Position numbers and translations under genes: made by a program. Positions 14,409 through 35,070 of a stretch of 64,000 bases of DNA are shown in pieces (positions within the stretch are counted from its first letter, which is position 1; each line of letters begins with the position of its first letter). The DNA is from Pholiota molesta (taxonomy: Eukaryota > Basidiomycota > Agaricomycetes > Agaricales > Strophariaceae). The notes beneath the pieces are model-generated. The model saw only the letters and a program-made list of their open reading frames with translations. It had not been told where the DNA came from and made no database searches. Location: the NCBI GenBank assembly GCA_014925825.1, contig JACGCK010000070.1:1-64000 (forward strand), in the 5' to 3' direction.

Positions 14409-15828
14409 TGATAGGGCGCGGTTTTGGCTATACGTGAAACCCGCAATATTTTGCCTTTTTATCAGTAGAAATACCAGTCAGCTGGCGGAGGAGTTTAAGT
14501 CGTCCCGGACTGAGAACTCATTAGCGGCGCATAAAATCAATAAAGAGATTAAAGACAGCCGTCTGTGACAATGGTAGCGGACGATGTTACAGTAAATTGT
14601 AACTCAACTGCAAGCCGGGAGACAGTTTAACAAAAACAGCTATCCATTTGATACTCGAATATTACCTATGCGCGCGCTTAAACCACTACACGGGACAAGT
14701 ATTAAAAACGGAACGGACATTCCCTAGCGAGCCGAAGCACAGCATCATGCGCGGAACGCAGCTCCCCGAGCCGGGATTATAGCTAAAAGCTCTAAAAATA
14801 GACCTTGCATCTATATTCAGCTACTAAAGATAGAACGCAGATAGCTGTTAAAGCGTGAATAAGCGCTAAAGCGTCTAGCAAAGCTGCGAGTCAGGTGCAG
14901 CAAAGAGATCAATAAGCAGGGAGACAGAGATGACGAAGAATAATGGCCTGGTGACCTACAAACCAGGGTATTTCACATGGAAAAGGGAACATGGGCAGAG
15001 GGTATAGAGTCGCGAGGAATGCAGCTAAGGCCTGGGCCTATACCGCTGAGCAATCGCTACCCAAAAGGATAGGAATCGGAATCTAAGAATGCTGGACTGT
15101 TTGTGAACCGTTTGTATGTATTAATGTTGGAGCCTGGGACCATACACTTGTAGTAGTATAAATTACCAGTAGGTAGTGTAGTTAAGGACAAGCAATCAGT
15201 ACCCATTTTATTTGAACTATAAACGTTCGAGCACTAAGGGATAAAATACGGATTTGTTTCAGCGCCGAGTGCTATAACTCGTCGAGACTATCACAGCTTG
15301 AGGTCGGACTGAAAGCAGTTCCAGGCTAGTGATCCGCGGCCGCGTATATTGAGAGAGTGTTGCGAAGATTTCGAATAGCGACGAGCTATTTCCGCGTTTT
15401 TCGAGACACCAGGACTCATAGTACACGGTACTACGGCGATTGTAGCCAAGTGGAAGTCCACCTAGCGAACGAGAGCATCGACGAGAGTGATTAGCGAGTT
15501 ACCAGAGCATTTTACCGAGCAATAAAAACAACAATTCCAACACCCTAAAAACAACGATTACCTTTCCCGAGCCAGAATCAACAAAGTTACGGGATACTCA
15601 GCGATTGATCCTAAAAATAACTCCTTCCCTAAAAATATCGAACGAGCAAGGCAACTTACTGTCAAAAGTAGGACCACAGAAAAAGAAAATCATACCCAGA
15701 GCGACGCACACACAATTTATAAAAAGATCGAATAACTACGGAAGGGCGTCGCTCGACCTGAAGTTTAGGATCTCGCTCCGCTTTTGTGTTTTTCTGATTC
15801 AAGGTCTTGCCTGATAGCAAGCCTCTCA
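14409..15828 (+). repeat. 5' LTR
   Basis: 1,420 bp, nearly identical to the 3' LTR; it has one extra A in an A run near 14534 and one extra G near 14919. A TATAAAT box is at 15157, a likely start of the genomic transcript. Confidence 0.93.
15157..15163 (+). promoter_or_regulatory. TATA box of the 5' LTR
   Basis: TATAAAT in a mixed-composition context about 670 bp before the LTR end; the same box is at 34399 in the 3' LTR. No experimental support. Confidence 0.4.
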
Positions 15829-15830
15829 TC

Positions 15831-15846
15831 TGGAGCCCACCGCGAG
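15831..15846 (+). promoter_or_regulatory. primer-binding site
   Basis: TGGAGCCCACCGCGAG begins two bases after the 5' LTR. It starts with TGG, the complement of a tRNA CCA end, as expected. The matching tRNA end would be CTCGCGGTGGGCTCCA; it does not match either tRNA in this window. Confidence 0.7.
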
Positions 15847-16050
15847 GGGGGGATTTTATAATCAATCAAAGAGTTGATCTATACTTTCGAACGGAACAGC
15901 CTATTACTTTAAAAACAATTTTACAAACAACAAAGATTCAGCTTCACTCCCGTTAGCGATAGCGAGCGGTGATAAAGCCAGAATCTATAGAGACTAGTAG
16001 CAACGGCTCCTAAAACAAAGGAAGACCCTACCTATCAGTTTAGACCACAA

Positions 16051-17982
16051 GTGGGCGAACCTCGTACAACAGTACCGGCAAAGCCTAAAACAACTAGAAC
16101 AACCAGAAATTCAGGAGACGCGGGGCTTACACCACCGTACGAGAAGCCAGTTCAGAAAAGAGTTACTCGTAGAAGCGATACGTTAGCTATCAGTGAATCC
16201 AAAGGATCATCGCTAAGCATCGGAACTAGCAGCCAACGGTCAACGACACCCATACGGGAAGAAAGTCAGAGTCGGGGCCCACTCACTGAAGATATCACTG
16301 AAAGTGCTATTTCGGAATACCGGGACACTTTAGAAGGAACACCAACTTCTATTGGATCCAGTCAATTTCAAGAAAGTGATACTTTTAGCGGCATTGTGAA
16401 AAGCGAGGAAGAAGATTTATCTTTTGCTTTCGCTCAACCCCAATCGCTACCAGATACATTCCAACCCCCCGCAAAAGCTAAAACAATGTCTAAAGCAGAA
16501 ATGCCGACGAAGAGGTCCAAGGAGGCACCAGAGTTTGATGAAAAAGAGCCAGAAGGCTTACCTCGATTCTTCGAAGACCTGGAGGTACTCTTTAAAAGAT
16601 TTGGAGTAGATGAAGCGGACAAGAAAGGATATGTAGGGCGATATGTAAAGCCCAAGGTAGAAGAAGGATGGAAGACGTTAGATGGGTATCGCGGGAGTTA
16701 CCAGGAGTTTAAGAAAAGTATCCTGGATGATTATCCTGAAGTGATAGCCATGAGTCGGGGCTCTATTACCAAGTTAGAGCAGATATGCAAAGAATACCAA
16801 AGGCTTAGCGAACTCGATTTGCAGGAGATCCTTCAATTCAAAAGATGTTTCAGGGCAGAAGCATCCAAGTTAACGAGGGAACCAGCCCTGTTAGCTAACC
16901 ACACATTGGTTGAGAAATTCTCCAAGGCGTTAGTCCCTGAATTCCGAGATCGAGTATTCAGCCAGCTGGACTCAAACAGAAGGAATGATGAGCAGTTCCG
17001 AATGAACGTGAAGAAACTGGTGTTAGATCCAAATAATCTTCTGAAAGACCCTACGCATAACCGGCCAGAGGATAAGTTCACCCTCGATGAAGTCATAAGG
17101 ATGACAGAACAATTAGCTCGTGGTCGAAACCCAGGACAATCTTCGATTCTAGATGTTCCGGTAGCTACGGCCAGGACGGCAGAAACGCCAGTCCGAGTCA
17201 AAACAGAGAATATAGAGTTTACTCTAATGGAGGAGATTCGTAGCCAAATGGCAAATATGCGAGATGCGCAAGATGTGAGCCGGAAGGAGATGCAGGACAT
17301 ACGTCGGTTTGTGCAACAGACACAGTCGCAAAACCAGCAGCTAGCACAGATGGCGGCAGCGTCGTCGGCTCCACAGCAGCTAGAGGGCCCAGGGCTGTCA
17401 AGTTATCAACAGCAGCCTCAGTATAGGCCGAGCTATAACAGTAATCGCTTTCAAGGGTCGAACATGCAGTCTGGATGGAAATGCTTCTATTGTGGAAAGC
17501 TAGGGCATCAAATTAAGGATTGTCAATCCAAGGAAGCTCATTTAAAAATGGGTTACATTGAGAAACGGGAGGGAGATCACCGACACTATATAACAGGTGG
17601 CGGGGTCCTCAGATTCGACGAGGATAAACTACCTATTGAAAGAGTGGAAGAGTTTCATGTGAAACAAAAGTTAGCTTCAAACTTTTATGCCAAACCTCAA
17701 AGGGGAGTTCTACAGCTGGCACATGTTCTAGACCAGGCAAAACCCAGTTCATTATACACCAATAAACCAAGGGATCGCAGGGACAGACTATTAGAAAAGT
17801 TGGAGCAGCAGCTAGAGCAGATTCGTATGCAGCCACCTCAGGAAGAAGACGAGGAAGAACCAGATGAACTTGAGGCATACAGTCGCCAGTACCACGAGGT
17901 AGCTAACAGGGTACGACAAGAACGAATGGAGATGGAAACGGAGTTCTCTGATGAGGATTCGGGTTTCTACAACGTCCAATGA
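16051..17982 (+). CDS. Gag polyprotein
   Basis: The frame is open from 15991 to the TGA at 17980-17982. The first in-frame ATG is at 16486, giving about 498 residues that start MSKAEMPTKRSKEAPEFDEK, close to the usual start of the capsid core (GLPRFFEDLEVLFKRFGV). No ATG in any frame was seen between the 5' LTR and 16486, so upstream codons would need a non-AUG start; 16051 is GTG. Near the C-terminus is one CCHC zinc knuckle, CFYCGKLGHQIKDC, from 17482. Its stop overlaps the next start in ATGA. Gag packages the genomic RNA in the virus-like particle. The N-terminal boundary is uncertain. Confidence 0.85.
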   Translation: MGEPRTTVPAKPKTTRTTRNSGDAGLTPPYEKPVQKRVTRRSDTLAISESKGSSLSIGTSSQRSTTPIREESQSRGPLTEDITESAISEYRDTLEGTPTSIGSSQFQESDTFSGIVKSEEEDLSFAFAQPQSLPDTFQPPAKAKTMSKAEMPTKRSKEAPEFDEKEPEGLPRFFEDLEVLFKRFGVDEADKKGYVGRYVKPKVEEGWKTLDGYRGSYQEFKKSILDDYPEVIAMSRGSITKLEQICKEYQRLSELDLQEILQFKRCFRAEASKLTREPALLANHTLVEKFSKALVPEFRDRVFSQLDSNRRNDEQFRMNVKKLVLDPNNLLKDPTHNRPEDKFTLDEVIRMTEQLARGRNPGQSSILDVPVATARTAETPVRVKTENIEFTLMEEIRSQMANMRDAQDVSRKEMQDIRRFVQQTQSQNQQLAQMAAASSAPQQLEGPGLSSYQQQPQYRPSYNSNRFQGSNMQSGWKCFYCGKLGHQIKDCQSKEAHLKMGYIEKREGDHRHYITGGGVLRFDEDKLPIERVEEFHVKQKLASNFYAKPQRGVLQLAHVLDQAKPSSLYTNKPRDRRDRLLEKLEQQLEQIRMQPPQEEDEEEPDELEAYSRQYHEVANRVRQERMEMETEFSDEDSGFYNVQ

Positions 17983-19232
17983 AGGAGACTAAAGTACTAG
18001 CTCAGACCGCAAGGAAGAGTGCTTTTAAAAGACCGGAGGACGTTAATAACAGTAAAATCACGAAAATGAAGACAAGAAGCCGAGGCCAACACAAAGGATC
18101 AGACGATGGAGAGGACAGTGATAGCGATGACGAAGAACCGCGGTTTACGCCGCCAGTAAAACCCAAGAAAAAGAAAATGGAAACTCCCTATATCACGAGG
18201 GAAGCGCCGAAGAAAGTAGAGTTTGAGGAGATACCATTGGACCTGGAAAAAAGCAGGCGAAATGGAATGATACCCTACGTAGATGTCCCCAGAATGGACC
18301 CTGCGCTTAAAGCTAGGATAGCGCCGCGAACTGAGCCTATCCCGATCCTAGAAAAGAGAGAGCCGGCGTACACGCATAAAGCACCAGTGGAGATGGATGT
18401 CGACGTCCCAGCCATCTTTAATAGGATGAAAGAGACACCGATCACTCTAACTCAACGAGAGTTTTTGGGTGTTATCAGTCCGAGATGGAGGAAACAGTAT
18501 GCGGACGAGTTAGCTACGAAACGTATACCCACCATTCCTGGTAGCGAGCAGAAGGTCTCCATGATAGAAGAATTGGAGGGATGCAAAAATATAGATGGAG
18601 AGCCCTATGAGATATATCATCTTGGAAAAATAGAAACCCCCGTATTCAGGAGGTCTAGTGAACAAGATAAGGGTGTACCAGAAGGCTCTTTCATTATTGA
18701 AGATCCCGTTGAGCAATATCTCAACACCCTGGACCCTTCACAAAGAGCGAAGAAGGTGTTGGTAGCGAGAGAATCACACCCACTGAAAGTGATCTATCCA
18801 GTCATAAATGGGACGGGACAGGAGGAAGCCTTGCTCGATCCAGGCTCGCAGATCATCTCAATGGCAAAAGACGTAGCTATGAAATTGGGAGTCTCTTGGG
18901 ACCCTAACTTGATAGTTAACATGCAAAGTGCGAACAAGCAAGTTGAAAGTACCGAAGGGCTAGCCAGAAACGTACCATTTAGATTCGACGATTTAACGTT
19001 GTATCTACAAGTCCACGTCATGTCAAACCCCGCGTACCGAGTGCTACTAGGGAGACCCTTTGAAGTGTTAACAGAACAGGTCACTCAGAACTTTAGAGAC
19101 GGAACACAGCTGATAACTATAGCGGATCCTAACTCTGATCGAAAGAGTACAATGACGACGTACGATCGAGGGGAGAGGCCGAGGGTCATACGACGGGAAC
19201 CTGAGGATCCTTTTCAGACTTCGATGATTTGA
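17979..19232 (+). CDS. retroelement aspartic protease region
   Basis: A separate frame of 417 codons starting with ATG at 17979 in the ATGA overlap with gag. The first 130 residues are charged (KTRSRGQHKG, long acidic runs, KPKKKKM). The protease core is near residues 275-370, with the active-site motif LLDPGSQI (an Asp-Pro-Gly variant of the usual DTG/DSG) and the later hydrophobic-Gly motif YRVLLGRP. Retroviral-type proteases act as dimers and cut Gag and Pol. The stop TGA at 19230-19232 overlaps the ATG of the next frame in TGATG. Confidence 0.82.
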   Translation: MKETKVLAQTARKSAFKRPEDVNNSKITKMKTRSRGQHKGSDDGEDSDSDDEEPRFTPPVKPKKKKMETPYITREAPKKVEFEEIPLDLEKSRRNGMIPYVDVPRMDPALKARIAPRTEPIPILEKREPAYTHKAPVEMDVDVPAIFNRMKETPITLTQREFLGVISPRWRKQYADELATKRIPTIPGSEQKVSMIEELEGCKNIDGEPYEIYHLGKIETPVFRRSSEQDKGVPEGSFIIEDPVEQYLNTLDPSQRAKKVLVARESHPLKVIYPVINGTGQEEALLDPGSQIISMAKDVAMKLGVSWDPNLIVNMQSANKQVESTEGLARNVPFRFDDLTLYLQVHVMSNPAYRVLLGRPFEVLTEQVTQNFRDGTQLITIADPNSDRKSTMTTYDRGERPRVIRREPEDPFQTSMI

Positions 19233-20863
19233 TGAACAGTCAAGGAGATGTCGCATTAATAATAGAAAGGGATGACCAGACAGGGCAGTGTATGATTATT
19301 GGGGAGACGAAACCTCAAGATGGTTTGGCCTTTCAAGAAAAAGAGTTAAGAGATGTATATATGGAACAAGCAATTCCGGAACGAAGTCTAGAGGATGAGG
19401 ATAGGGAGAAATTGTATAAATATTTCTGTCAGACCTCTCATGTAAAGGATCGAGAAAAGTATTCCTTACAACCACGAGGAGTATTTGGACAAGTAGTAGA
19501 ATGGGAGCCGGAAGGGACGGTAGATCCCCAACCCGAAACAGTGTCAGTGTTAGCTACGAAGAAATATAAGAAAGTCGCGGACAAAGTGAGGCCTGTATAT
19601 CAGGACTTGCCAGAGAAATTTAGGATTGTTAGGAATATTACGGGAGACCCGTTAGCTAACATGCCCAAATTATCACCACGGCCCCCAGAGTTCACGCCTA
19701 CGGGAAGGTACACCCAAGAGCGGAAAGAGGCGTTTGACAAAGTCCATGAAGGAGATTTCTTGTGGCCTGAGGAACGGAAGTTAGTTCATCAGCTAGTTAT
19801 GCAACAAAACAAAGGTTTCGCATGGGATGATTCAGAAAAAGGAAGATTTAGATCTGACTTCTTCCCCCCTGTGGAAATTCCGGTTGTGGAGCATGTGCCA
19901 TGGGTGTTGAAGAATATACCAATTCCCCCAGGAATGCACCAAAGGGTGTGTGAGTTTATAAAAACCAAAATCGATGCGGGGACATATGAGCCGTCGAGCT
20001 CGTCGTACCGTTCGAGGTGGTTCACAGTGTTAAAGAAAGATCAAGTATCTTTTAGGATTGTACACAGTTTAGAACCATTAAACGCAGTAACTATCGCACA
20101 TTCCGGATTGCCACCAGTAATGGAAACATTGGCAGAGCACATAGCGGGCCGCGCTTGTGGAGCAATTTTGGATCTATATGTGGGATACGATGAACGACTA
20201 TTAGCAGAATCATCCAGAGATCTAACTACTTTCCAGACCCCGTACGGGGCCTTGCGGCTAGTAACATTACCAATGGGTTGGACTAATTCAGTGCCAATAT
20301 TTCATGAAGATGTCACGTATATCCTCCGTGAAGAAATACCTGAATATACAGAGCCCTACATTGATGATGTACCGGTCAGGGGTCCAGCGACGAGGTACGA
20401 ATTGGAAGGGGGAGGCTATGAAACTATCCCTGAAAATAGTGGTATCCGCAGATTCGTATGGGAACATTTAAATAATGTTAATCGGATAGTGCAACGAGTG
20501 AAATATAGCGGAGGAACCTTCTCTGGTTATAAATCAACTTTGTGCGCGGCGGATATCATGGTGGTAGGACACCTGTGCGGCTATGAGGGAAGGAAACCAA
20601 TGCCAGACAAAGTACATGTCATTCTTAATTGGGGAGACTGCAAAACGGTTAGCGACGTGAGGTCATTCATGGGAACGGTTGGATTGTTAAGAATCTATAT
20701 CGAGGACTACGCGACAAAAGCGGAGCACATACAAAAATTAATGAGGTCGAGCGTAACGTTCGAGTGGGGAGACAAACAGAGAGAGAGCATGGAGTTGTTA
20801 AAACAAGGAGTCAGGGATGCAAAGTGCATAATCCCTCTAGACTACTCAGCACCGGGGTTATAG
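19232..20863 (+). CDS. reverse transcriptase
   Basis: The frame starts with ATG at 19232 and encodes about 543 residues. The RT core follows a stretch with ENIPIPPGMH-like and FRIVHSLEPLN motifs. Palm motifs are AILDLYVGYDER, with the first catalytic Asp, LPMGWTNSVPIFHED, and YIDDV at about 20357, which is the Ty3-type catalytic box. The connection domain MGTVGLLRIYIEDYATKAEH and EWGDKQRESMELLK follow. The frame stops at TAG 20861-20863 just as the RNase H domain should begin, and RNase H continues in the -1 frame. The frame is otherwise intact and the copy is likely young. Confidence 0.9.
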   Translation: MNSQGDVALIIERDDQTGQCMIIGETKPQDGLAFQEKELRDVYMEQAIPERSLEDEDREKLYKYFCQTSHVKDREKYSLQPRGVFGQVVEWEPEGTVDPQPETVSVLATKKYKKVADKVRPVYQDLPEKFRIVRNITGDPLANMPKLSPRPPEFTPTGRYTQERKEAFDKVHEGDFLWPEERKLVHQLVMQQNKGFAWDDSEKGRFRSDFFPPVEIPVVEHVPWVLKNIPIPPGMHQRVCEFIKTKIDAGTYEPSSSSYRSRWFTVLKKDQVSFRIVHSLEPLNAVTIAHSGLPPVMETLAEHIAGRACGAILDLYVGYDERLLAESSRDLTTFQTPYGALRLVTLPMGWTNSVPIFHEDVTYILREEIPEYTEPYIDDVPVRGPATRYELEGGGYETIPENSGIRRFVWEHLNNVNRIVQRVKYSGGTFSGYKSTLCAADIMVVGHLCGYEGRKPMPDKVHVILNWGDCKTVSDVRSFMGTVGLLRIYIEDYATKAEHIQKLMRSSVTFEWGDKQRESMELLKQGVRDAKCIIPLDYSAPGL

Positions 20864-23121
20864 TGTTAGCTGTCGATACTTCGTGGAGAGCTATTGGATT
20901 TTATATCTACCAGGAAGATCCGGCAGATAAAAAGAAGAAGCGCTACGCGCGTTTTGGTTCAATACTCTTAAATGAGAGAGAAGCGAGGTTTTCACAACCG
21001 AAACGAGAGCTATTTGGTTTACTGAGGGCGTTAGAAGCTTGCATGTACTGGCTTCTAGGTTGCCGAAAACTAGTAGTAGAAACCGATGCTAAATACTTGA
21101 AAGGAATGCTGGATAATCCAGGAATGGGACCGAACGCTACCATCAACAGGTGGATAGACAAGATCCTAATGTTTCATTTCGAGTTAAGGCATGTACCAGG
21201 AAAAACCTTTGGACCTGATGGATTATCCCGAAGGGAAGGACAACCTGGTGACGAGGTCTTCTCAAATACCGAGGAATTCGAAGATGGGCCAGTAGGGCCA
21301 CCGGAATTCAGTAAATTAAATGAGGAGGACGAAGACCCGTGGGTGTTAGATAGGTTCAAAGACACCATCGACACCAGGGGAGGCTATCAACAGCAATTGC
21401 AACCGCAGATGAAAGACAACGAGCATCTGGCAACTAGTGTAAAATCCTTTGCAAAAGAATGTAGAAAGGCGCGCTCAGAATATGAGTTAGAAAAACAAGT
21501 AGTAAGACGTTTGATGGCCGCGAAACAAGTCCCCGAAGAGCAGGAGAAATTCTTGGAACAATATATGCTACGGCCTAGTCCACCGCTATATGACTTCGAA
21601 GAAGAAGGAGACCCTGAAGCGTACGATGAATCAAATAGGACCCCTGCAGGGCAAAGTACCGATGAGCGACTACCATTAGTTAAACTTTGGTTGAAAGACC
21701 CAACTAAAGGAATAGTGGGTATGAGCAGCCGGGAGTATCACAACTTTACGAGATTTGCAAGGCATTTCTTTATTGATGGGAAAGAGCGTTTGTACCGAAG
21801 AGCTATAGACGATACCCATAAACTTGTGATAGCTAAGGAAGATCGAACTAGAATGATGCGGTTGGCACATGACAATCTAGGACACAGAGGCTCATACGCA
21901 ACGCGGATGCTGTTGTCTGAGCGATTTTGGTGGCCAGAACTAGAAAGAGATGTCCATTGGCACGTCAAGACATGCCACCTGTGTCAAGAAAGACAAAAGA
22001 CCATGATTCAGATACCAAGGACAGAAACTCATACGCCATCAATATTCCAAGAACTACATATTGATACCATGCATATGTCACCAGAATCATATGGGTATAA
22101 ATACATAGTTCATGGAAGGTGTGCGCTAACGAGTTGGGCAGAAGGACGAGCACTAAGAAAGGAAAACGGCGAGACAATATCGGCCTGGCTGTTTGAAGAC
22201 ATAATTTGCCGGTGGGGTTGCCTTCGAGAAATCATAACCGATAATGGAGGTCCATTTGGCAGGGCGTTAGAGCACCTTAAAGCAAAATGGGGCATAGACT
22301 GGATCACCATCTCATCTTATAACTCGAAAGCGAATGGCAAGGTGGAAAGGCCACATTGGGATATACGCCAGATGCTCTATAAGGCGTGTGGAGGGGAACA
22401 TAAAGCCAAGAATTGGTTTAAATACTTCCATTATGTATTATGGGCAGACCGAGTATCCATCCGAAAAGGTTTAGGATGCTCGCCATTCTTCATGGTCACA
22501 GGAGCGCACCCCGTATTACCAATGGATATTGTGGAAGCTACGTGGTTGGTAGAACTACCTGATGAGATATTAAGTAGCGAAGACTTGATAGCTTACAGGG
22601 CCATCGCGCTAGCTAAGCATAAGGTCCATATAGATGATATGCGAAAGAGAATATCAAAAGCTAAAAGAGATTTGATACGGAAATTTGAAGAGAAATCAGC
22701 ATATAAAATTAAGAACTATACCTTTAAGAAAGGCGATTTAGTTCTAATGCGAAATTCACCGGTAGAAATGTCATTAAACCGTAAAATGAAACGACGATGG
22801 GAAGGCCCATATATCGTGATAGCTAGGAAAAGTGGGGGAGCCTATATCTTAGCGGACATGAGTGGAAAAGTGTTCAAAGATAAAGTAGCAGCGTTCCGGG
22901 TTATACCCTACTTCGCAAGAAGAGCTATCAAGTCTCCGGAGACGTTAGATGCGGCATTGGATCAGAGCCCAGAAAATATTAGAAAATTAATGGAAAAATC
23001 GGATGATGAAGGGGAAGACCATATAGAAAAAGAAATCTATGATGAGGAACCACTCAGGTCAGACGCTGAAGAAGACGAGGACGACGCGGAGGCATGGTGG
23101 GAAGACACACTATGGCCCTGA
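20764..23121 (+). CDS. RNase H and integrase
   Basis: The frame is open from 20764, but sense sequence begins near 20855, after RT slips by -1 on GGGG or through a mutation. RNase H shows VLAVDTSWRAIGFYI, KRELFGLLRALE and VVETDAKYL, with the expected acidic residues, then the tether NRWIDKILMFHFELRHVPG. The integrase zinc finger is HDNLGHRGSYATRMLL followed by CHLCQ. The catalytic triad is visible in ELHIDTMHM, IITDNGGPFG and NSKANGKVERPHW. The C-terminal GPY/F module is WEGPYIVIARKSGGAY. There is no chromodomain; the tail is very acidic and ends at 23121. Confidence 0.9.
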   Translation: MGRQTEREHGVVKTRSQGCKVHNPSRLLSTGVIVLAVDTSWRAIGFYIYQEDPADKKKKRYARFGSILLNEREARFSQPKRELFGLLRALEACMYWLLGCRKLVVETDAKYLKGMLDNPGMGPNATINRWIDKILMFHFELRHVPGKTFGPDGLSRREGQPGDEVFSNTEEFEDGPVGPPEFSKLNEEDEDPWVLDRFKDTIDTRGGYQQQLQPQMKDNEHLATSVKSFAKECRKARSEYELEKQVVRRLMAAKQVPEEQEKFLEQYMLRPSPPLYDFEEEGDPEAYDESNRTPAGQSTDERLPLVKLWLKDPTKGIVGMSSREYHNFTRFARHFFIDGKERLYRRAIDDTHKLVIAKEDRTRMMRLAHDNLGHRGSYATRMLLSERFWWPELERDVHWHVKTCHLCQERQKTMIQIPRTETHTPSIFQELHIDTMHMSPESYGYKYIVHGRCALTSWAEGRALRKENGETISAWLFEDIICRWGCLREIITDNGGPFGRALEHLKAKWGIDWITISSYNSKANGKVERPHWDIRQMLYKACGGEHKAKNWFKYFHYVLWADRVSIRKGLGCSPFFMVTGAHPVLPMDIVEATWLVELPDEILSSEDLIAYRAIALAKHKVHIDDMRKRISKAKRDLIRKFEEKSAYKIKNYTFKKGDLVLMRNSPVEMSLNRKMKRRWEGPYIVIARKSGGAYILADMSGKVFKDKVAAFRVIPYFARRAIKSPETLDAALDQSPENIRKLMEKSDDEGEDHIEKEIYDEEPLRSDAEEDEDDAEAWWEDTLWP

Positions 23122-23249
23122 GGCGACCAAATTTATTCAAGCATGGCAACGATGGCCTCAGGCATAAGAGAATACATGTTGGAACACAAGTACAACTAAC
23201 CCAGAAAAGGAGGAAAGTGGGTAGTAGAAAGGGGCTATTTAGGAAAGCC

Positions 23250-24544
23250 TTAAGCAGCTGCTATGTCAAGGGTGCTGTGGATTTTAGTAATGGAATGAAG
23301 GACGAGGTCGCGTTGCTTGAGCATGAAAGCAATCTGGTGCTGGATCCGGATTAATTCGGCTTTCAGGTCACCTTCAGCCTTGCGATAACCAAGTTCCGGC
23401 CCATCGTCCATATTCGCCTTTTCTAAAACATCATGCGCCTCTCTGATAAGAGCAGAAGTAGAGTCGTTATCCGCGGTAATGAGAGACGCTGCACCCAAAA
23501 CCAAAAATATTCATGGTTAGTGAATAGCCTTGGCGAGATCTATAAATAGCTAGGGACTTACCAGCGACAAGAGAACTGGAGTCGTTGAACGTATAATTAA
23601 GGCGTTGACGCTTGCCAGAGTCGCTACCGCGGTCGATTTCGGCCAGGGCCGAGGCTGTTAACAATCGAGTAGCCTTAAAATAGGCAGATGAGAGAATATC
23701 CATGCCAGGAACGTCAGCATACTCGAGGCGTACCGTTTCAGGACGCTTGGTGGACACCTGTAAAATTAAGATAAACAAGTCGTGCCACAGCCGGAAGACA
23801 TCACAAAAGACAAACCTGGTGGGCACCGGATCGCACAGGGGGATCGCGGCGCTTGCGAGAATTAAGAACCTCGCCATTGGAGACACCAGGATCAGTCATG
23901 GTGTCCAGACTGGGTGACTCGTCCACTGCGTTAGCATCGTCCACGGCCATCTGCTTGAATTTCAGCCAAAGATTAATTAAGTCATGAGCATCTTTCGGAT
24001 AGTCCACGGCTTAAAGGGAAAAGTTCAGTACCATATCGGGGGTGGGACAATCCTCGGAAAGGGACAAACTTGGCACGGGGAGATTTTGATTATTCTCGCC
24101 CAACGCTTTGTTCTTTCCAGAGCGTTGAGCACGCTAGAAAAAGAACAAAGTTAGTAAGAGAATGATCAACAAAAAGGAACAGTTAGCTACCGGGCCAGTA
24201 GGGGCGCTTTTAGCAGTAGCGTTCTCCTTGCCCGCTACGAGGCGCTGTTGACGCAAGAAGGAGACATGGAGTTCTCTAACATCCTTCCCAGCAGAGGAAA
24301 GAACGTAGTTGGGTCTCTTCTGAAGGACGTCTTCAAGGATTTGGTACACCTGAGAAACCATATCGCTAGCTTGGGTGTTCCCGACAACGGTTGGAATCAG
24401 CGAAGCCCAGCGGCGCAACAACACGCAAATGTCTTCAAGGTTCGAGGTATAATTATCGACCGAGATACCGGGGACATCGCGAAGACCTTTGACCGTAGCG
24501 AGCTTGGCCTTGAGTTCTTTGAAGCCAGGAAGATTGCCAGTCAT
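23250..24544 (-). CDS. antisense cargo protein A1 (spliced, 348 aa)
   Basis: Five exons on the strand opposite to gag-pol: 24544-24191, 24133-24070, 24009-23816, 23757-23562 and 23488-23250. All four introns have GT...AG ends and sizes of 57-73 bases. The exons sum to 1,047 bases and keep one frame from ATG (MTGNLPGFKELKAKLA) to the stop. The product is mostly helical; landmarks are YTSNLEDICVLLRRWASLIP, a basic patch near the middle (NSRKRRDPP), LEYADVPGMDILSSAYFK, and a C-terminal helix from IREAHDVLEKAN. I recognise no catalytic motif or named family. It could be a capsid-like or regulatory protein of the element; this is not shown. Confidence 0.65.
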
Positions 24545-24835
24545 TGAGCAGAAAGAAATGGAATGGCATTCATACAGAAGGAACTCGGTGTAATTTATAG
24601 AAAATAGGGCACCAAGAATTAAAAACAAGGCACCTTAAAAGAACAGAATAGCTATTAAAGATAAGCTAGGAGGAATGGTCAACTAAGGACGTCTAATAGT
24701 GGAAAATACTATTTACGGACAAAGTACAATCGCGACCACTGGATCTGAGGAGAAATAAACGATAAAATCATGTGATTAACAAACGAGAAAAGTGGATAGT
24801 GCCGGAGCGATGTCACGGACAAAGACCCAAAACGT

Positions 24836-25747
24836 TAGAATGTAGTATCTCCGTCAGCATTTGCTGGGGAATGGTTCCATCCCTACAAAGAAAAAAGGGA
24901 TTAATCATACCTCCCAATGCAGGATGAAGATCTACATACCACGGATGGTTGATAGTTGGTGATTAACGCCATAAGGATTTCCAGCGCAAGTATACCCTGG
25001 TTTACGCCTGGAAGGATAATCGAGTGAAAAGAGATCTCATCGTGATAGATCTGCCTGAGCAAAAGGAGAGACCGTTCAAGACCCACGACCCAGACGACAT
25101 CTTGAACCTCGACGGATATATGTCGCTGAAGGATAATGTCGTCTAAGTAAATGATGAAACAAAAAGGAAAGAAGTGAAGACAAAGGAAGCATACGAGGTC
25201 GTGGAGAATTCCTTGAATGGCATGAAGGGCGCGTTCGTTATGTGTCCCGTACACACTGTCAAAATTCTCGATAGTCTCCATAAGAATATAAATAGGGAAG
25301 CGGCGGGGGAAAGATTCCTCTTCCAAAGTACAGGAGCTGCGCAAGGCTGGAGCCAAGCCAAGGACGCGGTCTTCTAATTCTATCGCGTCGGTAGATAAAA
25401 CCAACGGAGGTTGACCATGTTGCCGGCACCAGTGGCGGGCGCATTCTCGATGAACAGCATAGAAGGAAATAATCGTGAAACATAACATGTGATCGCCACG
25501 AAGTTCTGCGGTGGTGAACCGATAGTTAAGCTATCATAGCCAGCGATTAGTTGGGATTTGGTCCATTAACTAGCGACCTCACCACGAGAAGTAGCAAGTG
25601 CCTGGTTAAAGGAAATGTTGGTTGAATTAAAGCAGCTGGTGGGGTCCGCAGGGTGTCCATAGAGATAACTATCTGTATAAACCATGCAATCCGAACACCT
25701 TCTACAAGGCTGCGAGGAAAAGCTGGAAGCGCAGGAGGAATACTCAT
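24836..25747 (-). CDS. antisense cargo protein A2 (spliced, unresolved ends)
   Basis: A likely start is ATG at 25747 (MSIPPALPAFPRSLVEGVRI). The best coding stretch is ELRGDHMLCFTIISFYAVHR, followed by RHWCRQHGQPPLVLSTDAIE and ENFDSVYGTHNERALHAIQG. A clear intron near 25142-25190 joins it to ILQRHISVEVQDVVWVVG and ITNYQPSV. A further donor (GTATGT) near 24937 leads to a last exon that may end between 24813 and 24838. The join between the first exon and the second did not close in frame in my reading, so the 5' part is unsure. No family recognised. It lies head to tail with A1. Confidence 0.5.
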
Positions 25748-26051: not shown

Positions 26052-26656
26052 CTATTCAGCCTGAAGAGCATGAAACAAAAGCATGGGCTTGGCAATGGCA
26101 GCCACAGAACCGCTAGCAAGAACGAGGAATCATTAGTTCTAAGTAAACACGGAACATATGAGAAAATCTCGTACAGGAATAGGTGAACGGGGTTGACGGT
26201 CAAAAGCATCCCGAAGGAGTCGCAAAGTATAGGCATCGTTGCAAGGAACGAGAGGCCCTGCGACTTCGATCCCTTGTAAAATAATAAGACGAAGGCAACG
26301 ACTTCGGCCTCAAGAGCGGTGTTGATATGGACTAGTAATTGAGGATGTCGGCGCAAGTCCTGTAGAGAAAGGTGCAAATCACACTACAAAGGGAAATACA
26401 GGATTAGAACCTTGGGACATCAGCAGACACAGTTTGAACGAACCAAAAACTCGAGATTGTCCCGAATATACTCGAAAGCGAGTATAGGGTCAAGGTCCAA
26501 ACAAGCTTGGATGTCCTCTTCGTACTTAAAAGATCGAAGGCGATTGTGGAGAACAGTGTACAATACAGTACGCGCCTCAATGCCGAAATCGGCGAAGCGA
26601 CCTTCGAGAAGTGGCGACACTATCATACTGGTAGGAGAGGGTGAGCGAGAACCCAT
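26052..26656 (-). CDS. antisense cargo protein A3 (spliced)
   Basis: ATG at 26656 gives MGSRSPSPTSMIVSPLLEGR and runs to RDNLEFLVRSN near 26420. An intron of about 60 bases leads to LHLSLQDLRRHPQLLVHINT and a hydrophobic helical block ending near EIFSYVP. A second, very short intron (about 38 bases, holding a CTAAT branch-like site) would join to GSVAAIAKPMLLFHALQAE and a TAG at 26052-26054. The product would be about 190 residues, all-helical in character. No known family. Exon borders are tentative. Confidence 0.5.
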
Positions 26657-26887
26657 AATAATCAGGACGGTTAGGTGAGGGAGAAAAGAAAATCCTTGGG
26701 AATTTATTGTCTTCCTTTCCAGCCGTCCTTGGATAAAACACAATTCAGTAGCTACGAAATAGGAAAGTTCAAAGGCGAGGATGGTAATTGGATAGCGAAG
26801 GAAATTACAAGCGGGTACTACATAAGTACGCAGAAAGAAAACCATCCAGGGAAAACACTGGGGAACAAACTCTATAAACAAAAGATG

Positions 26888-27489
26888 TCATCGGAGATTA
26901 GGAAATGTAGGTACGCTGGGAGAACCAAAGAGAATGTATGAAACGGATGCGGTTGAGATTCTAGAAGAAAAGAACTCAATTAAGCCTTTAAGCATAAGGA
27001 TTTTGAGGGGACAAACCCAGGTTGAGAAATCAATAGAGGCGGACAGTTTGGCAAATTCAAACAAGAAAGTGGGGTCAGGACGAGTAGCTAAGACAGCCAC
27101 GGAGTCGATTTGAGGTGGACAAAGGTTGAGCAAGATATACCGCTCAACCAGAAAAAGTTGAACAGCTACGAAAGCTAGCTCGGGATACTGAACGAACATG
27201 TCAAAACCAGGATTCATGGCTTCCTGCAATAGTTTTAAACTATAAAAAAGTTACAAACCAAATAAGCAGGAACTGCTCACCAATTGACTCAGCAAATTCC
27301 GTATTGCAGTCAACGTCCGTGGACGATCAGTCCGAAGCTGGTTAATGATCGAGGCAGGATAATAACAATCGAGCGCCTCGTGAAACAGGATTATAATGTC
27401 AGCTTTCGCGGCGTCGGAGAAAAAACGAAGCGAGGAATAAGGGGAAGCAAAATGGAGTGACGAGTAACGGGGAAGTCAGGATAAGCCAT
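26888..27489 (-). CDS. antisense cargo protein A4 (spliced)
   Basis: Two exons are clear. The first holds SDAAKADIIILFHEALDCYY and RPRTLTAIRNLLSQL, ending at a GTGAGC donor near 27280. After an intron of about 57 bases the second holds EAMNPGFDMFVQYPELAFVA and FLFEFAKLSASIDFSTW, ending at the TGA at 26888. An ATG at 27489 precedes them but is in another frame, so a small 5' intron or a different start is needed. It resembles A3 and A5 in size and helical, hydrophobic make-up, which hints at a repeated family, but I could not align them by eye. Confidence 0.5.
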
Positions 27490-27909
27490 AGTGCTGGAAA
27501 TGATGAGCAGCGAAGATAACCACTAAAACTGCGAAGCGAAATAAATAAGTTCGAGCAGGTGGGAATACTCAGACCTAAAAAGGAAATTTGATCTAAACTT
27601 AGTAAGGTGCGGACAAGCGCTGGAAAAGAGAATTGAATACAAAAGATTCATTTCGAGTGTTGCAAAAAAGAACTACATTCGCTAAGCGTTTAGAATGGAG
27701 TTTATCAAGTAACCATTGAAGTCCAGATAGCTAGGATTTTGAAATGGAACATCGAAAAGAAGGGTATAATGATGGAAATGCTCGGTATGGCTTTAGCCGT
27801 ACAATAAGGAAGGAGTCAGCAGGACTATTCATGCAATAGGCATGTGAGTAGTAAAAAGGATGTAGCAAAAAAGGGAAAGAGATAGGTGGATAGTGAAGAG
27901 ATGGTACGA

Positions 27910-28316
27910 CTAGGACAGGACGTTAGAGAACGGGAACAATATCTCTAAAACATTCTTGAAAAGGATAGCTAACTCTTGGGCGGACTGGACTTGCTGAACG
28001 AAAGCTTGACCGTCGGCGGAGAGAAAGGAATCCAGGTCGTCAGACAGAGCGGGCATTTGATTGATGAAACCCTCATTCCAAGCGGCGTTGATTAAGATGC
28101 TACGGATGTCGGGATAAATAATGAGATGTTCCTGAGAGAACTTGGCCGATACCTGACAAACAGAGGAAATGGGTTAGAGTGGTAGCTAGCGATAAAACAA
28201 TGAGCGGCTAACCAGAATATCAATAATGGACGAATCTCGACGATGAGCTCTTCGCGAGGAACTTCAATCCGCTCGAAGATTTGTGGTGGGGAGCAGCGTT
28301 GAAGCCGGGAGGACAT
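27910..28316 (-). CDS. antisense cargo protein A5 (spliced)
   Basis: ATG at 28316 gives MSSRLQRCSPPQIFERIEVP and EELIVEIRPLLIF. An intron near 28155-28210 leads to a second exon with VSAKFSQEHLIIYPDIRSIL, NAAWNEGFINQMPALSDDLD and FVQQVQSAQELAILFKNVLE, ending at TAG 27910-27912. My junction is off by one phase, so either the donor is elsewhere or the gene carries a small lesion. Helical, no named family. Confidence 0.45.
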
Positions 28317-28578
28317 GAATTTAGGAAGATGGATCGGCCAAACACGTTCAAAGACGCGAAGCCAGTACTATCAGCAGCGAACGGGCCATCGAAGAACATG
28401 GCGGGATGAGGAATAGACATTAAAGAAATGAAACCACGAGGATTTATTATATAGCTATCCAAGATAAAGTTATTTATAGGCTGTTGGACTTAGTCCAGTT
28501 CACAGCTAATTAAGTCACTCAAAGAAAACCAATAGCGCAGAGAGGAACCATCTATAAAATTCGCAAACTATTTAAAAC

Positions 28579-28593
28579 TATATATATATATAT
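28579..28593. repeat. short TA dinucleotide repeat
   Basis: About seven TA units just past the end of antisense gene A6. Confidence 0.7.
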
Positions 28594-28596
28594 GAT

Positions 28597-29476
28597 TTAA
28601 ATAGTAAAAAGTTCGTCATCCTCGAGCTGCTGAGGCCCCCCAGAGTAATGAACGCCTCCTTCCCACTAGCTGGCAAGTTCGAGAAAAAGCTCTGGGTCTC
28701 AGGATGGCGTAAATCAAAAGAGTGGACAATGTCCACGGTGGCCTGCAACCGAGGCTTAATATCGGCCAAAATACCTCTACACATCGTCATGAGTTGGAGA
28801 TCGAGGTAGGAGGTAGCAAGATCAGGCCGGCCATGGGCATCATAACGGACGTAATTCAGTGCTGGAGAGCAAAAACCGAGAAATTAGAGCCTTATAAAAA
28901 GAATTAAAAATAAAGGACGAACGCACTGCGTGTAGGCGCATTATAAGGGGCAGAACAAAAGAGCACGGCAGGCGGGAGCTGAGGACCGATGCCCGCGTCG
29001 CCTAGACAGGGGATGCAAAGTTTGCCATATCCAATGAACGGGCGTGAGGTGAGCAAGGAAGACGGGGTCGGATGATGGCACCCGGCGCAAGGAGGGCCAA
29101 TGGGAGAAAACAGGGGCACAGGTGGACGAGAAGTACTCTCACGCGGTGGTGGAAGCAAGGGAGTGTCGAAATGGATAGGCGAGCTGATATAGGCGGGTCG
29201 CCGCAGAGGAGATGAATTGAAGAGAGGCCCCAAGGCCGCAAGATCCAATTCAGGGGGTGGAGATGCACTTCGTCCTCGTCCTCCTCCTCGGAAATTCGGT
29301 CAGGGGCTCCGGGGGGATCGACTCTGCTGACTTGAAGGGGTATAGATGGGACCAGTGACCGACGACGACGGGAAGTGGGGTAGTCGCAGGTTGCTACAAA
29401 AACAGTGAGCCAGGCGAACTTAACGGGATGTAGGAAAGAGGCACGTACGAAGGGAGCAGTCAGAGTTGGCAGCCAT
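28597..29476 (-). CDS. antisense cargo protein A6 with paired CxxC motifs
   Basis: ATG at 29476 gives MAANSDCSLP, joined by a typical intron (GTACGT...TAG) to TCDYPTSRRRRSLVPS and an acidic run. A frame change, perhaps an unseen intron, leads to a Pro-rich block and then to PPCAGCHHPTPSSLL and GYGKLCIPCLGD, a CxxC...CxxC pair about 25 residues apart that may bind zinc. Another intron near 28870-28920 joins to LNYVRYDAHGRPDLATSYLD and a helical end closing near 28597. I recall similar Pro-rich, CxxC-bearing hypothetical proteins in mushroom genomes but no name. Nucleic-acid binding is a guess. Confidence 0.45.
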
Positions 29477-30539
29477 GGCGTAAACAACAAAGGGAAAGAA
29501 GAGAGTCTAAACCAACTCAATACCGACATGGGCTCTTTATAACATGATAAACATGGGGTCTATAACGTAATGACAGCGGCAAAGAATTACGACCTCTTTT
29601 GACGAAACGTAATGCGTCCATGCTACTCAAGTAAATAGAAACTGCGCGCCGAAATCGGCAGTAGCAAAGAGTATCAGATATGGACCAGAGAAAGATCTCA
29701 TGGGAGATCAAAGCCAGAGGAGGGGATTTGCAAGAATAACAAAATATATTAAATCTTCAATACGATTTATTTGTTAAGCAAAAATAACAAAGAAAGACTG
29801 GATGGCGCTACTATATTCGGGGTATTACAAAAGATACATCAAAAATACAGTTACAGAGTTTAGGTCTCCGGGCGACTATATCAGCAGTAACACTGAGTTG
29901 TGGGTAGAACAGTCTCCGTCAAACAGGGAATGACCGCCGGGTGGGACAAAATATTTGATATAGTTCTTATATAAGTCGAACCGAAGGCGCATCATGATGC
30001 CAACTCGGACACTGGATGATGACGGCATGCACGCTAGGGGACTAATTAGTGGGCGCGGCGGTAACGAAGAAAGTGCCTAGATAATTACCAAGCAATGGCA
30101 CCGTAGAGATATGGCAGGGATAGCGAAGATACCGAACGGATGATTGTCGTGATGCGAAGGAAGTGCCCGGGTACTATACGCAGAGCACGATGTCAATGGT
30201 TGGGTACTTTGTGAGAAAAGGGATCCCAACGTACCGCGAGTAATGGGAAATTTGCTGAGAAAGGCGGAGTCTCTGATCTCGATGGATAAGTTATCATAAC
30301 CTAAACGGGGATCAGCGGTGACAAACCATATGTCAAATAGAAAGAGCGAAATTGTCCCTGAAAGTCCAAGGAGAAATAAAGACTATGGTTCATTGGAATC
30401 AATGTCGATATTTCTAAGTATTTCTTTGTAAAAATCATAGCGTTAGGTGGATATTCTTAAAGAGTTCACACCTTGGAGAGAGAGTCACAAGAGAAATTTT
30501 ATATAAAAAGTAACAAAGCTATCTACCAAAGATAGATAG
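29477..30539. other. internal region of the retroelement without clear gene
   Basis: No open frame above about 60 codons with protein-like content. It separates antisense units A6 and A7 and may hold their promoter and 3' sequences. Confidence 0.35.
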
Positions 30540-32932
30540 CTACCAGAAACCGCGGGCACAAAAAATGTCTACAAATAAAAATGTATATACATATATATAC
30601 ATAAAAGATGGGCGTCCGCCAACGAATCCACCAAGCACGCGACCAAGAAAACCATGGCAAAGTGAGACTAGCGCGGCGAACAAGGAGATGCGGGGAACCG
30701 AAACTAGGCGCAGGGGGGCGTCACTTTCGTCAGACTCATCCTCTTTGTCTTCGTCGCTACCGCTGCCCTCCTCAGAGGAACCGTCGCTATCAGACTCGCT
30801 AACAGCAGGCTGAGCCTGGGGGCGGATTGTGGGCTTGGACGATACGTCATCCACACTCGAAGTTCCATCGTGGAGCCGTCGCCAGCGTCGTCGCCGGAAG
30901 CAGCCGGACCGTCATTTGATGCGGGGAAAGGGCCGGAAACTTCGATGTCGGACGAAGATGTGAGGGCTCGGCGTGATCAAAAGGATGAGCCTGCAAAATG
31001 AAATAAGAAGTTAGAATAAAGTGTAAAAACGAAGAAAAGACTTACGAGCGGGCTCAGCATTGAATAGCTGCGAAAAGTCGCAGCAATCCGTTGAGCCTCC
31101 GAAGGACCGCGTGCGAGCCGTTGCTCAATCAAGTCCAAATCCAGGGAATCCGCCTGGGCGAGCGCAAGCATGTCAGCCTGTGAAAGTGCCATGATATGGG
31201 CGGGTGGGACTGTAGCGCACATGCGCTCCACCGTCTTGATGGCCGTCTTGAACTCGCGAGCCGCCTCGAGTGACGCTTCGTCAGCAAGCGACAGCAGGTT
31301 GATTGAACACTGCAAGGCTTGATGACCGCGCGCGAGCGGCAAGGCGATAGCTAAAGACAAGCAATAGAGAAAAGTTAAAACAAACAAAAAGGGAGAAGCG
31401 GAAAAACTTACACCCAGGGCTCAAATCCGACCAAGGTTCAATAGCTTGCGCGATTTGGGCCAGCGCTTTAGGATGGGCGGAGAAAGTACAACCCGGGCGA
31501 TTAGCCGAGGTGCATAGTTTGCAGGGACATCCCAGCCAACGAATTCGCACTCGACCATTCCTGTTGATCGCGATAGTAAGCACAGTTAGTGCAACAAGCG
31601 GGGGCCTAAGGAAGGTTAGCCAAAAAATTATCAAATACACGACATATTTAATAAAAACTTACCGAAAGATGCGCCGTCGCGTTTAGAGCAGCGGGCAGGC
31701 GTTCGGAGAATTCCTCGAGAGATCCCAAGGGCTCGGAAATCTGATGCAGATAGGCCATGGAGAAACCCCGAATAGGGACGTCCTTCATGGCAATCTGACC
31801 TCTTGGAATCGGCTGCGCAGGTTCTCCTAAGCCTGGAGGAGGCGAGGCCTCGAGAGCTAGGACAGAAATAAAATGGTTAGTAAGAATAAAAGGAGGAACA
31901 CTGAAAGCATACCTCTTTGCGCTTGTAGCGCCGAGCGGTGCGCCGAGCGCAGAGTCGATTTACGGGCACCCGCTAGAGGGCCGTCCTCCACCACTTCCTC
32001 GGACGCAGCCCGTCGCTGACGCTTGGGAGAGGGAGCGGCTTTTGACTTGGCTTTGGTAGCCTTCGTTTTGCCACTCTCTAAACAACCAGGAGAGAGCATT
32101 AGTTGAATAAAAATATGGTTTAAAACAAAATGAGGGCTTACTGGTCGCCGTGCGGGCCGCGCCACGTTTGCGCTTACCCTTCTGCGCGGTCTCAACGGGC
32201 TCTCTGATTCCTCGACCGACGATTCGCTAGGCGAAGGAGGGGATGTTTGGATATTTGGGCTTCTTGATGCCCTTGACGCCGGCCGTGGCGCCGCTACGGG
32301 AAGAGCTAGCCTTAGAAGGTCGGACAGGCGAAACGAGCACCGCCGCACCCCCGTCAGGTGGTTGGGGTGTCGAGGCGCGTGAGGAAGAAGGAACCACAGG
32401 AGCCGAGAAGAGGTTGGAAGTCGAAGAGTCGTCGACAGCGGGCATCCACCAAAAGGCGTTGGTCTCTCCAGGACGAGGGGCAGGCGCAACTTCGGGCAGC
32501 TTGTCCGAGATATGCCAACTAGCGAAGCGGTGTTTCTAAATAAATAAGAAAGTAAAAAGTCAGTAAAAATGAAGACTAGCTACCAAAAGGATAAACTTAC
32601 GATTTCGTTGGTGAACCGAGGCAAGAACCACCTCGTGTGCCCAGTTATAATTTGACCTTCTGGGCGGTCTTCGTACAAGCGGGAAATGGAATAAACGAGG
32701 CGACAAATCTCGGGGCTGTCGAAGGGAGCCCGGGGATTGGTGAGAAGAAAAGCGTTCTAAAAAGCCAAGTCAGTTAAGAATAAAAATCAGCGGGGCACGG
32801 GGAAAAACTTACCAAGTCAGCGGCGATGGTCTGCAAGATACGGTTGGAGTAGGCACCACCAAGATCGGTGGAGAAGAACGCCTTCAATAGCGAAGGCAGT
32901 TGGAGACGAAGGCGAGCAGCGTAAGCGACCAT
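30540..32932 (-). CDS. antisense cargo protein A7 (multi-exon)
   Basis: ATG at 32932 gives MVAYAARLRLQLPSLLKAFF. Clean GT...AG introns join it to NAFLLTNPRAPFDSPEICRL (exon near 32758-32599), then to KHRFASWHISDKLPEVAP and NAFWWMPAVDDSS. A Ser/Pro-rich block and basic patches (KGKRKRGAAR; PSPKRQRRAA) follow. A later exon (about 31875-31663) has GFSMAYLHQISEPLGSLEEF, another (31630-31430) a Cys cluster CPCKLCTSANRPGC, and another (31350-31047) a helix LLSLADEASLEAAREFKTAI. The tail is acidic (SDSDGSSEEGSGSDEDKEDE). A TAG near 32230 falls exactly at an AG and is probably spliced out. In the Cys exon two frames compete, so a small lesion is possible. It looks like a nuclear, zinc-binding protein; function unknown. 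Confidence 0.55.
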
Positions 32933-33618
32933 GTTTTAGAGGAGCGAGAGTAGAAGAGGGAGAAAGGAAGAAAGAGGCGGTGAAGATGAGTAGCTGAGGG
33001 TGAAGCAGACCATCTTAAATATCAGAGAGAGAGGCGCACGGGCCTCTGAGGATTACTATGCAAATTCAATGGAGTAGCGAGGCAGACATACCGGCGTTAG
33101 CGAACAGAGTAGGACTTGATCCAAATCTGGTAGAATAACGACCAAATGGAGGTGATCTCCTTGAGACACATACTGCAATTGTCCGGCCTGGATAGCTACG
33201 AGTCATAGCGAACCAAAGAAGCATGAAGCTAAAAGCTAAGAAGAAGAAGAAGCGCGAGTTTAAAAATAGCAGCAACGAAGCGCGAGGCGCTAATCAGGGC
33301 GCTAACAGGTACTGGACATAGCTGTCCGGGCCGAGAATCGGGAAGAACAAGTGAAATCCTGAAAAATGACACCCATATTGTCTAAGGATAGCGGAGGGAT
33401 GCAGGCTATAGGGCGTCGAACACTGGGTTGCTACGATAAGCAATAAGCTTTCGAAGCCCGGGTGGACACGGAATAGCTAAGAAAATGGGTCAGAAAAGAA
33501 GATTCAATGTTGTAAAGTCAGCTCGCAGCGAGAGCCTCGTGTTGCGCAACCGAATATGCAAAATCGAAGCAGGGCTTGGGAAATGTCCGAAGGAATAAAC
33601 CTATGGGGCCAGAAAATG
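32933..33618. other. 3' non-coding part of the retroelement
   Basis: No convincing gene. It would contain the promoter of antisense gene A7 and leads to the polypurine tract. Confidence 0.4.
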
Positions 33619-33652
33619 ACTGAGGACAGTCAAGATTTCACTGGGGGGGAGA
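33619..33652 (+). promoter_or_regulatory. polypurine tract before the 3' LTR
   Basis: TGAGGACAGT followed by CTGGGGGGGAGA directly before the LTR tip TGATAGGG. The purine run primes plus-strand synthesis in LTR elements. Confidence 0.75.
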
Positions 33653-35070
33653 TGATAGGGCGCGGTTTTGGCTATACGTGAAACCCGCAATATTTTGCCT
33701 TTTTATCAGTAGAAATACCAGTCAGCTGGCGGAGGAGTTTAAGTCGTCCCGGACTGAGAACTCATTAGCGGCGCATAAATCAATAAAGAGATTAAAGACA
33801 GCCGTCTGTGACAATGGTAGCGGACGATGTTACAGTAAATTGTAACTCAACTGCAAGCCGGGAGACAGTTTAACAAAAACAGCTATCCATTTGATACTCG
33901 AATATTACCTATGCGCGCGCTTAAACCACTACACGGGACAAGTATTAAAAACGGAACGGACATTCCCTAGCGAGCCGAAGCACAGCATCATGCGCGGAAC
34001 GCAGCTCCCCGAGCCGGGATTATAGCTAAAAGCTCTAAAAATAGACCTTGCATCTATATTCAGCTACTAAAGATAGAACGCAGATAGCTGTTAAAGCGTG
34101 AATAAGCGCTAAAGCGTCTAGCAAAGCTGCGAGTCAGGTGCAGCAAAGAGATCAATAAGCAGGAGACAGAGATGACGAAGAATAATGGCCTGGTGACCTA
34201 CAAACCAGGGTATTTCACATGGAAAAGGGAACATGGGCAGAGGGTATAGAGTCGCGAGGAATGCAGCTAAGGCCTGGGCCTATACCGCTGAGCAATCGCT
34301 ACCCAAAAGGATAGGAATCGGAATCTAAGAATGCTGGACTGTTTGTGAACCGTTTGTATGTATTAATGTTGGAGCCTGGGACCATACACTTGTAGTAGTA
34401 TAAATTACCAGTAGGTAGTGTAGTTAAGGACAAGCAATCAGTACCCATTTTATTTGAACTATAAACGTTCGAGCACTAAGGGATAAAATACGGATTTGTT
34501 TCAGCGCCGAGTGCTATAACTCGTCGAGACTATCACAGCTTGAGGTCGGACTGAAAGCAGTTCCAGGCTAGTGATCCGCGGCCGCGTATATTGAGAGAGT
34601 GTTGCGAAGATTTCGAATAGCGACGAGCTATTTCCGCGTTTTTCGAGACACCAGGACTCATAGTACACGGTACTACGGCGATTGTAGCCAAGTGGAAGTC
34701 CACCTAGCGAACGAGAGCATCGACGAGAGTGATTAGCGAGTTACCAGAGCATTTTACCGAGCAATAAAAACAACAATTCCAACACCCTAAAAACAACGAT
34801 TACCTTTCCCGAGCCAGAATCAACAAAGTTACGGGATACTCAGCGATTGATCCTAAAAATAACTCCTTCCCTAAAAATATCGAACGAGCAAGGCAACTTA
34901 CTGTCAAAAGTAGGACCACAGAAAAAGAAAATCATACCCAGAGCGACGCACACACAATTTATAAAAAGATCGAATAACTACGGAAGGGCGTCGCTCGACC
35001 TGAAGTTTAGGATCTCGCTCCGCTTTTGTGTTTTTCTGATTCAAGGTCTTGCCTGATAGCAAGCCTCTCA
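33653..35070 (+). repeat. 3' LTR
   Basis: 1,418 bp, ending CTCTCA, nearly identical to 14409-15828. TATA box at 34399. Confidence 0.93.

Follow-up and report, generated by a model that had tools for sequence, protein, structure and literature searches.

The window analysed here is a 64,000-nucleotide stretch of the Pholiota molesta genome, in which positions 14409 to 35070 are occupied by a 20.7-kb long terminal repeat (LTR) retrotransposon of a group that we term family A. We consider it likely that this is a Gypsy-type element carrying, after its pol gene, an antisense compartment of selected, intron-bearing accessory genes whose products would serve, most likely, as nuclear regulators. The features of the element are as follows, with positions counted along the window, U1 to U4 denoting the antisense units and C numbers the other loci of the genome:

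14409..35070, plus strand: whole LTR retrotransposon of family A, with an LTR pair free of mismatches, target duplication, primer-binding site (PBS) and polypurine tract (PPT)
14409..15828, plus strand: 5' LTR, 1420 nt
15829..15850, plus strand: PBS region, with a 15-nt core
15991..17982, plus strand: gag frame, 663 codons, with a CCHC zinc knuckle
17955..23121, plus strand: pol, in three overlapping frames (protease, reverse transcriptase, RNase H, integrase)
23250..24544, minus strand: predicted antisense gene U4, 5-6 exons and 328-348 codons depending on the model (gene finder; selection against C35 and C75)
24835..25460, minus strand: predicted antisense gene U3, about five exons, ends uncertain (gene finder; selection against C75)
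26052..28941, minus strand: U2, predicted antisense multi-exon gene or genes, limits uncertain (gene finder; weak selection evidence)
30383..32932, minus strand: predicted antisense gene U1, 13-14 modelled exons (gene finder; selection against C75; shared core introns)
32933..33563, minus strand: conserved region upstream of U1, probable antisense promoter, with TATTTAAG at 33014-33021 and a 23-nt string at 33148-33170
33643..33652, plus strand: PPT GGGGGGGAGA, abutting the 3' LTR; an identical tract is found in C75 and in family B
33653..35070, plus strand: 3' LTR, 1418 nt

Judged from sequence, the LTRs, target duplication, PBS, PPT and domain order identify the window element as a Ty3/Gypsy-type LTR retrotransposon. 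Comparison of its two LTRs revealed no mismatches and two gap positions, and the 4-bp target duplication GCGG flanks it at 14405-14408 and 35071-35074. The coding domains follow one another in the order gag CCHC, protease, reverse transcriptase, RNase H and integrase. Within pol, Pfam matched the protease, RNase H and the integrase zinc-binding domain, with no match to the integrase core; for the reverse transcriptase region, a match to the structure of Ty3 Gag-Pol was obtained at E 5e-11 and a weak one to Pfam RVT_1 at E 0.003. Frames and LTR alignment bear out the preliminary description of this DNA in placing the end of the sense gag-pol frames at 23121 and the start of the 3' LTR at 33653, and the 10.5 kb between pol and the PPT contain multi-intron gene models on the minus strand.

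The coding signal of this interval was assessed with a purpose-built gene finder based on ATG, stop, GT-AG introns of 42-140 nt, a branch-point score and a codon model. The minus strand of 23122-33652 scored 238, against 64 for the plus strand and 17±9 (maximum 39) for dinucleotide-matched random sequences (n = 30; rerun with 20 shuffles), and the outer limits of the models coincide with positions 23250 and 32932, between which a minus-strand coding block had been proposed. With 20 shuffles each, the minus strand of the U2 sub-region scored 31.7 versus 3.4±3.5, and that of the U3 sub-region 20.9 versus 1.5±1.4. The low minus-strand score of gag-pol was dropped as a negative control, since the finder, scored with the background of the stretch itself, misses gag-pol on the plus strand too (15.5 and 20.9). 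Independent gene models of U4 are held in the database (P0002, 321 residues, on the window contig; P0003, 348 residues, at C75), with ends identical to those of the gene-finder model and mid-gene splicing that differs in part. The C-terminal part of U1 is uncertain, and U1 could be two genes.

Purifying selection was evaluated as the ratio of non-synonymous to synonymous substitution rates (dN/dS) between the window element and its copies at C35, which differs from the window by 2-3% in the compared region, and at C75, with p-values that take sites as independent. For U4, comparison with C35 yielded 8 synonymous and 3 non-synonymous changes over 348 codons (dN/dS 0.12, p 8e-4), which resembles the constraint on gag (0.11; 0.05-0.13 across gag and pol pieces), and comparison with C75 gave 0.27 over 347 codons (p 1e-10). 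In the U4 stretch of C75, 48 of the 144 substitutions coincide with CpG sites of the window, and such sites account for 12% of the stretch. The ratio of U1 against C75 is 0.17 (319 codons, p 5e-25), and that of the last 425 pol codons 0.09. U3 gave 0.19 against both copies, with p 4e-5 over 94 codons for C75 and p 0.08 for C35. Shifted frames returned 0.88-1.58 for U4 (one without a synonymous change), 1.28-1.37 for U1 and 0.54-5.4 for U3. U2 is identical to C35 over 133 codons, which makes that comparison uninformative; against C75 it gave 0.27 over 66 codons (p 0.03), in a frame that is one off the entered exon pair and is the sole stop-free frame in the window. These substitution patterns indicate that U1, U3 and U4 are under purifying selection in their predicted frames. 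Four antisense units are thus supported, U4, U3 and U1 by selection and U2 more weakly, mainly by the gene finder; the earlier count of at least seven units is not confirmed.

Searches with the LTR recovered seven full-length family-A LTRs, two in the window and one each at C35, C236, C615, C198 and C75. At C198 and C236, the LTR stands alone within the 1.5 kb examined per side, with a matching 4-bp flank at C198 and one mismatch in that of C236. Family-A pol is carried by five loci, and all three that reach its end have the block, at the same place and in the same orientation. The C35 copy carries it up to the contig end at window position 26636, while the C75 copy lacks the segment 25344-27400 and has, in place of 28210-31434, some 7 kb of different DNA, probably a nested insertion. 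This replacement (C75:71177-78277) has frames of up to 374 codons, and Pfam searches on them gave no match. At C615 the match ends inside pol at 21646, and the pol fragment at C179 covers only the first 100 of the 473 residues in the query. The 5' flank of the window element is unlike those of C35, C615 and C75, showing that these are separate insertions. Both GT and AG are kept in all eight U4 intron-copy cases of C35 and C75, and U3 splice sites are kept in 4/4 cases in C35 and in two of the three testable ones in C75.

A second family, termed B, is represented by an element at C11:135356-148530, whose LTRs are 99.8% identical over 1419 nt and are flanked by CCGC on both sides. Its PBS and PPT are identical to those of family A, and its integrase region is 71% identical. 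Between pol and the 3' LTR, the C11 element has 3.0 kb, the minus strand of which carries a homologue of U4, at 38% identity, and possibly a short gene besides; this strand scored 97, versus 8±6 for shuffles (maximum 21, n = 30) and 10.6 for the plus strand. Matches to U4 were found at four places in the genome (C594, C35, C75 and C11), in every case inverted beside pol. The expectation that homologues of the antisense proteins always lie inverted between pol and the 3' LTR fits the U4 matches in this genome; relatives of U1 also occur where no pol was found. The first and last U4 introns have the same alignment column and phase in families A and B, so that two of the four introns of the window model are shared; the middle introns, of which the window model has two and C11 three, show no such agreement. 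Its presence in two families suggests that U4 is the older part of the block.

Since the block and its introns lie between LTRs without mismatch, the block was in the RNA that made the window copy, and the U4 intron positions and phases common to a 38%-identical family indicate that introns lasted through RNA-mediated copying. On this comparative evidence, introns have persisted through RNA-mediated copying. The proposal that antisense cargo keeps its introns from jump to jump is thereby supported as to the persistence, which a genomic RNA of the opposite strand would lead one to expect. In such a scheme, the genomic sense RNA would start in the 5' LTR and traverse the antisense block, the splice signals of the antisense genes would go unread, and reverse transcription would copy the introns. 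After integration, internal antisense promoters would drive transcripts that the host would splice. The selection seen on the proteins would reflect a benefit to the element, most likely through regulation, in the nucleus, of its transcription, RNA export or integration, a role suggested by basic patches noted by eye in U1 and U4 and by analogy with GENE23 of Grande and HBZ of human T-cell leukaemia virus (HTLV).

U1 has a distribution of its own. U1-like proteins, 25-43% identical, are also encoded at C168, C173 and C533/C363/C505, and both core U1 introns occupy the same column and phase in all four loci compared (window, C173, C363 and C168). Between C173 and C363, U1 has a dN/dS of 0.31 over 162 codons (p 3e-4), with 0.99 and 1.87 in the shifted frames. 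The conservation extends upstream, where DNA common to the window and C363 is 75% identical over 33144-33269 and 70% over 33442-33563, and where a box, TATTTAAG or TATTTAAA, precedes the U1 start at short range (81 nt from the ATG in the window element). The U1 promoter is probably this conserved TATA-like region. The 23-nt string within it is unchanged in the five loci compared, C75 included, though the proteins are down to 25% identical, and it therefore looks like a candidate binding site for a regulator; it contains the near-palindromic core GGAGGTGATCTCC.

No pol or PBS was found at C168, C173 or C533/C363/C505 in the regions read, which cover these loci in part, and no repeated flank was found near the U1 locus on the C363 side. 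The idea that a third element family had left recent copies at C533, C363 and C505 was dropped, since the offset between C533 and C363 is constant (253,214) and a second LTR-like 3' copy was not found; the three appear to be one region on duplicate contigs and are counted once. Owing to such duplicate contigs, the numbers of copies counted in this genome may be too high. The presence of U1 with its upstream DNA where no retroelement was found suggests capture as DNA. We regard it as probable that the element captured the U1 module in this form, with promoter and introns included and on top of the older U4, and favour this over the view that these loci are remains of related elements. A wider proposal, that antisense orientation serves a lineage of fungal Gypsy elements as a regular means of carrying whole eukaryotic genes, promoter and introns included, via an RNA genome, with the block built on U4 by DNA-level capture, is put forward tentatively, as somewhat less probable than its opposite.

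Several observations weigh against an antisense compartment of nuclear regulators. Only three copies are informative, C35 being cut by its contig end and C615 and C179 stopping inside pol, and the C75 copy is decayed, with 5 stops in the compared part of pol; its U1 keeps both splice sites in just three of seven introns, one donor being untestable. Among the family-B-like loci, U4 was found at C11 alone, with no integrase match near the others (15 family-B-like LTR ends are listed, three of them on C11 and many near contig ends). The supporting gene finder is home-made, antisense transcription and splicing are predictions, and the nuclear role of the products is proposed by analogy. U4 has no recognised fold or domain: structure prediction from three sequences gave a mean predicted local distance difference test (pLDDT) value of 49.7, with residues 1-106 helical and mostly at 70-85, a disordered middle and a C-terminal helix of low confidence, and no solved structure matched at E <= 0.001. 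The antisense products had no Pfam match near the cut-off, and neither TRP28 (PF04195) nor bZIP appeared among them at Pfam E <= 1. Protein searches, two of the three scoring the 8000 candidates with most shared words, gave five proteins, four of them from Pholiota molesta, and no relative of the antisense units in another named species.

Among the other explanations, the block could consist of ordinary host genes that are carried along without a role for the element. Such a reading would accommodate the U1 relatives and their upstream DNA at loci where no pol, PBS or repeated flank was found, as well as the selection on U1 between C173 and C363, outside the element. However, U4 was found only beside pol, in two element families, and is constrained against C35 much as gag is, and no Pfam domain was recognised in the antisense products; the confinement of U4 to these elements is better explained by an accessory role, and we consider host cargo improbable. 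For a symbiotic gene set, as had also been suggested, nothing shows a service to the host.

Alternatively, a second mobile element or a gene cluster could have inserted itself, on a single occasion, into a Gypsy element of the usual kind. Such a nested insertion would be consistent with the existence of U1 and its upstream DNA outside the element, since that part must have joined at some time. As a one-off event it is ruled out by the recurrence of the block, identically placed, in three copies that occupy different sites, and by U4 in a second family, and we give it very little credence; copies lacking the block, named in the preliminary description as the evidence that would point to it, are absent among those reaching the pol end. 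If the insertion happened long ago and was then retained as a component of the element, it falls within the explanation preferred here. That the units are chance frames, or a region of non-coding antisense transcript, is the least probable reading, and we attach almost no weight to it. It draws on the interval 28.4-30.4 kb, where the minus-strand signal is weak (10.9 versus 3.3±2.7 for shuffles, maximum 9.1, n = 20), and on shifted frames that are not uniformly neutral (0.54 in one frame of U3 against C75). The gene-finder score, six times the shuffle maximum, and the dN/dS values against C75 refute it for U1 and U4, and the shared intron positions and independent database models also speak against it.

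Further observations concern the element and its relatives. Across the genome, the 15-nt PBS core was matched at 33 places (none for the backwards-read pattern used as a control), 14 of which lie on the same strand and at most 8 kb upstream of a related pol. This single core is common to many related pol families, which include C195, C484, C201, C603 and others, and no tRNA gene for the primer was found at the two of the 33 PBS-like places examined. The pol frame breaks of the window (17955-20863) differ in place from those of C35 (L004:4848-6789), and the C11 integrase sits in a longer open frame of 1298 codons. Gene-like minus-strand frames on both flanks of the window element (12294-14123 and 35143-37834) suggest that it sits inside another gene or repeat, and Pfam searches on three flanking frames gave no match. 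The target duplications are GCGG in the window, CCGT at C198 and CCGC at C11, and the C35 flank is ACGG; RCGG, on one strand or the other, fits all of these, consistent with a possible target preference.

The window element was at first called giant, which holds in a relative sense, since Ogre elements measure 16-25 kb and Burro more than 30 kb (PMC6431247). The plant Gypsy elements Retand, Grande and RIRE2 have antisense open reading frames between pol and the 3' LTR (PMC7264820; PMC11963269), and the maize GENE23 product of Grande is nuclear, the gene being transcribed from its own promoter (PMC7264820). As in these elements, a long interval after pol holds antisense units across copies and families here, where antisense coding recurs in the three family-A copies that extend to the pol end and in C11. 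However, the plant interval spans 2.9-6.6 kb, with TRP28 in 97% of clusters (PMC11963269), compared with 10.5 kb and no TRP28 match in the window element, and the plant units are open reading frames, whereas those described here are broken by many introns.

Closer in host, Boty/BcGypsy1 of Botrytis is likewise a fungal LTR element with an antisense gene, brtn (PMC7264820; PMC8365987); one such gene is named there, whereas at least three are supported here, with introns. The antisense genes hbz and APH of HTLV produce a spliced transcript and act in the nucleus (PMC10186651). The likeness lies in a spliced, nuclear-acting antisense gene of a retroelement, with splicing and nuclear role in our case predicted from sequence and analogy; HBZ differs in having a 3' LTR promoter and a bZIP domain, whereas the conserved region upstream of U1 is internal to the window element and its antisense products gave no bZIP match. 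In beta-globin lentiviral vectors, the gene is reversed so that its intron survives in the viral RNA (PMC6775231), which is the same strand logic in an engineered construct without common descent.

Antisense genes after pol are thus known already, and the novelty lies in a fungal element with several of them, split by multiple introns. The literature searched, which was mostly without subscription papers, yielded no description of such an antisense block, with multiple genes and multiple introns, in an LTR element of a fungus. Passage through an RNA copy normally strips a gene of its introns. The window element appears to escape this loss by the choice of strand, as vector designers do on purpose, and two diverged families in one genome offer a natural case for measuring how far introns persist through reverse transcription. 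Capture of U1 along with its promoter and introns, if it took place, would constitute a route for intact eukaryotic genes to travel by retrotransposition, and if antisense orientation is indeed a standing way of carrying genes in this lineage, such elements could act as vehicles for intact intron-bearing genes within a genome and, if transferred, between species.
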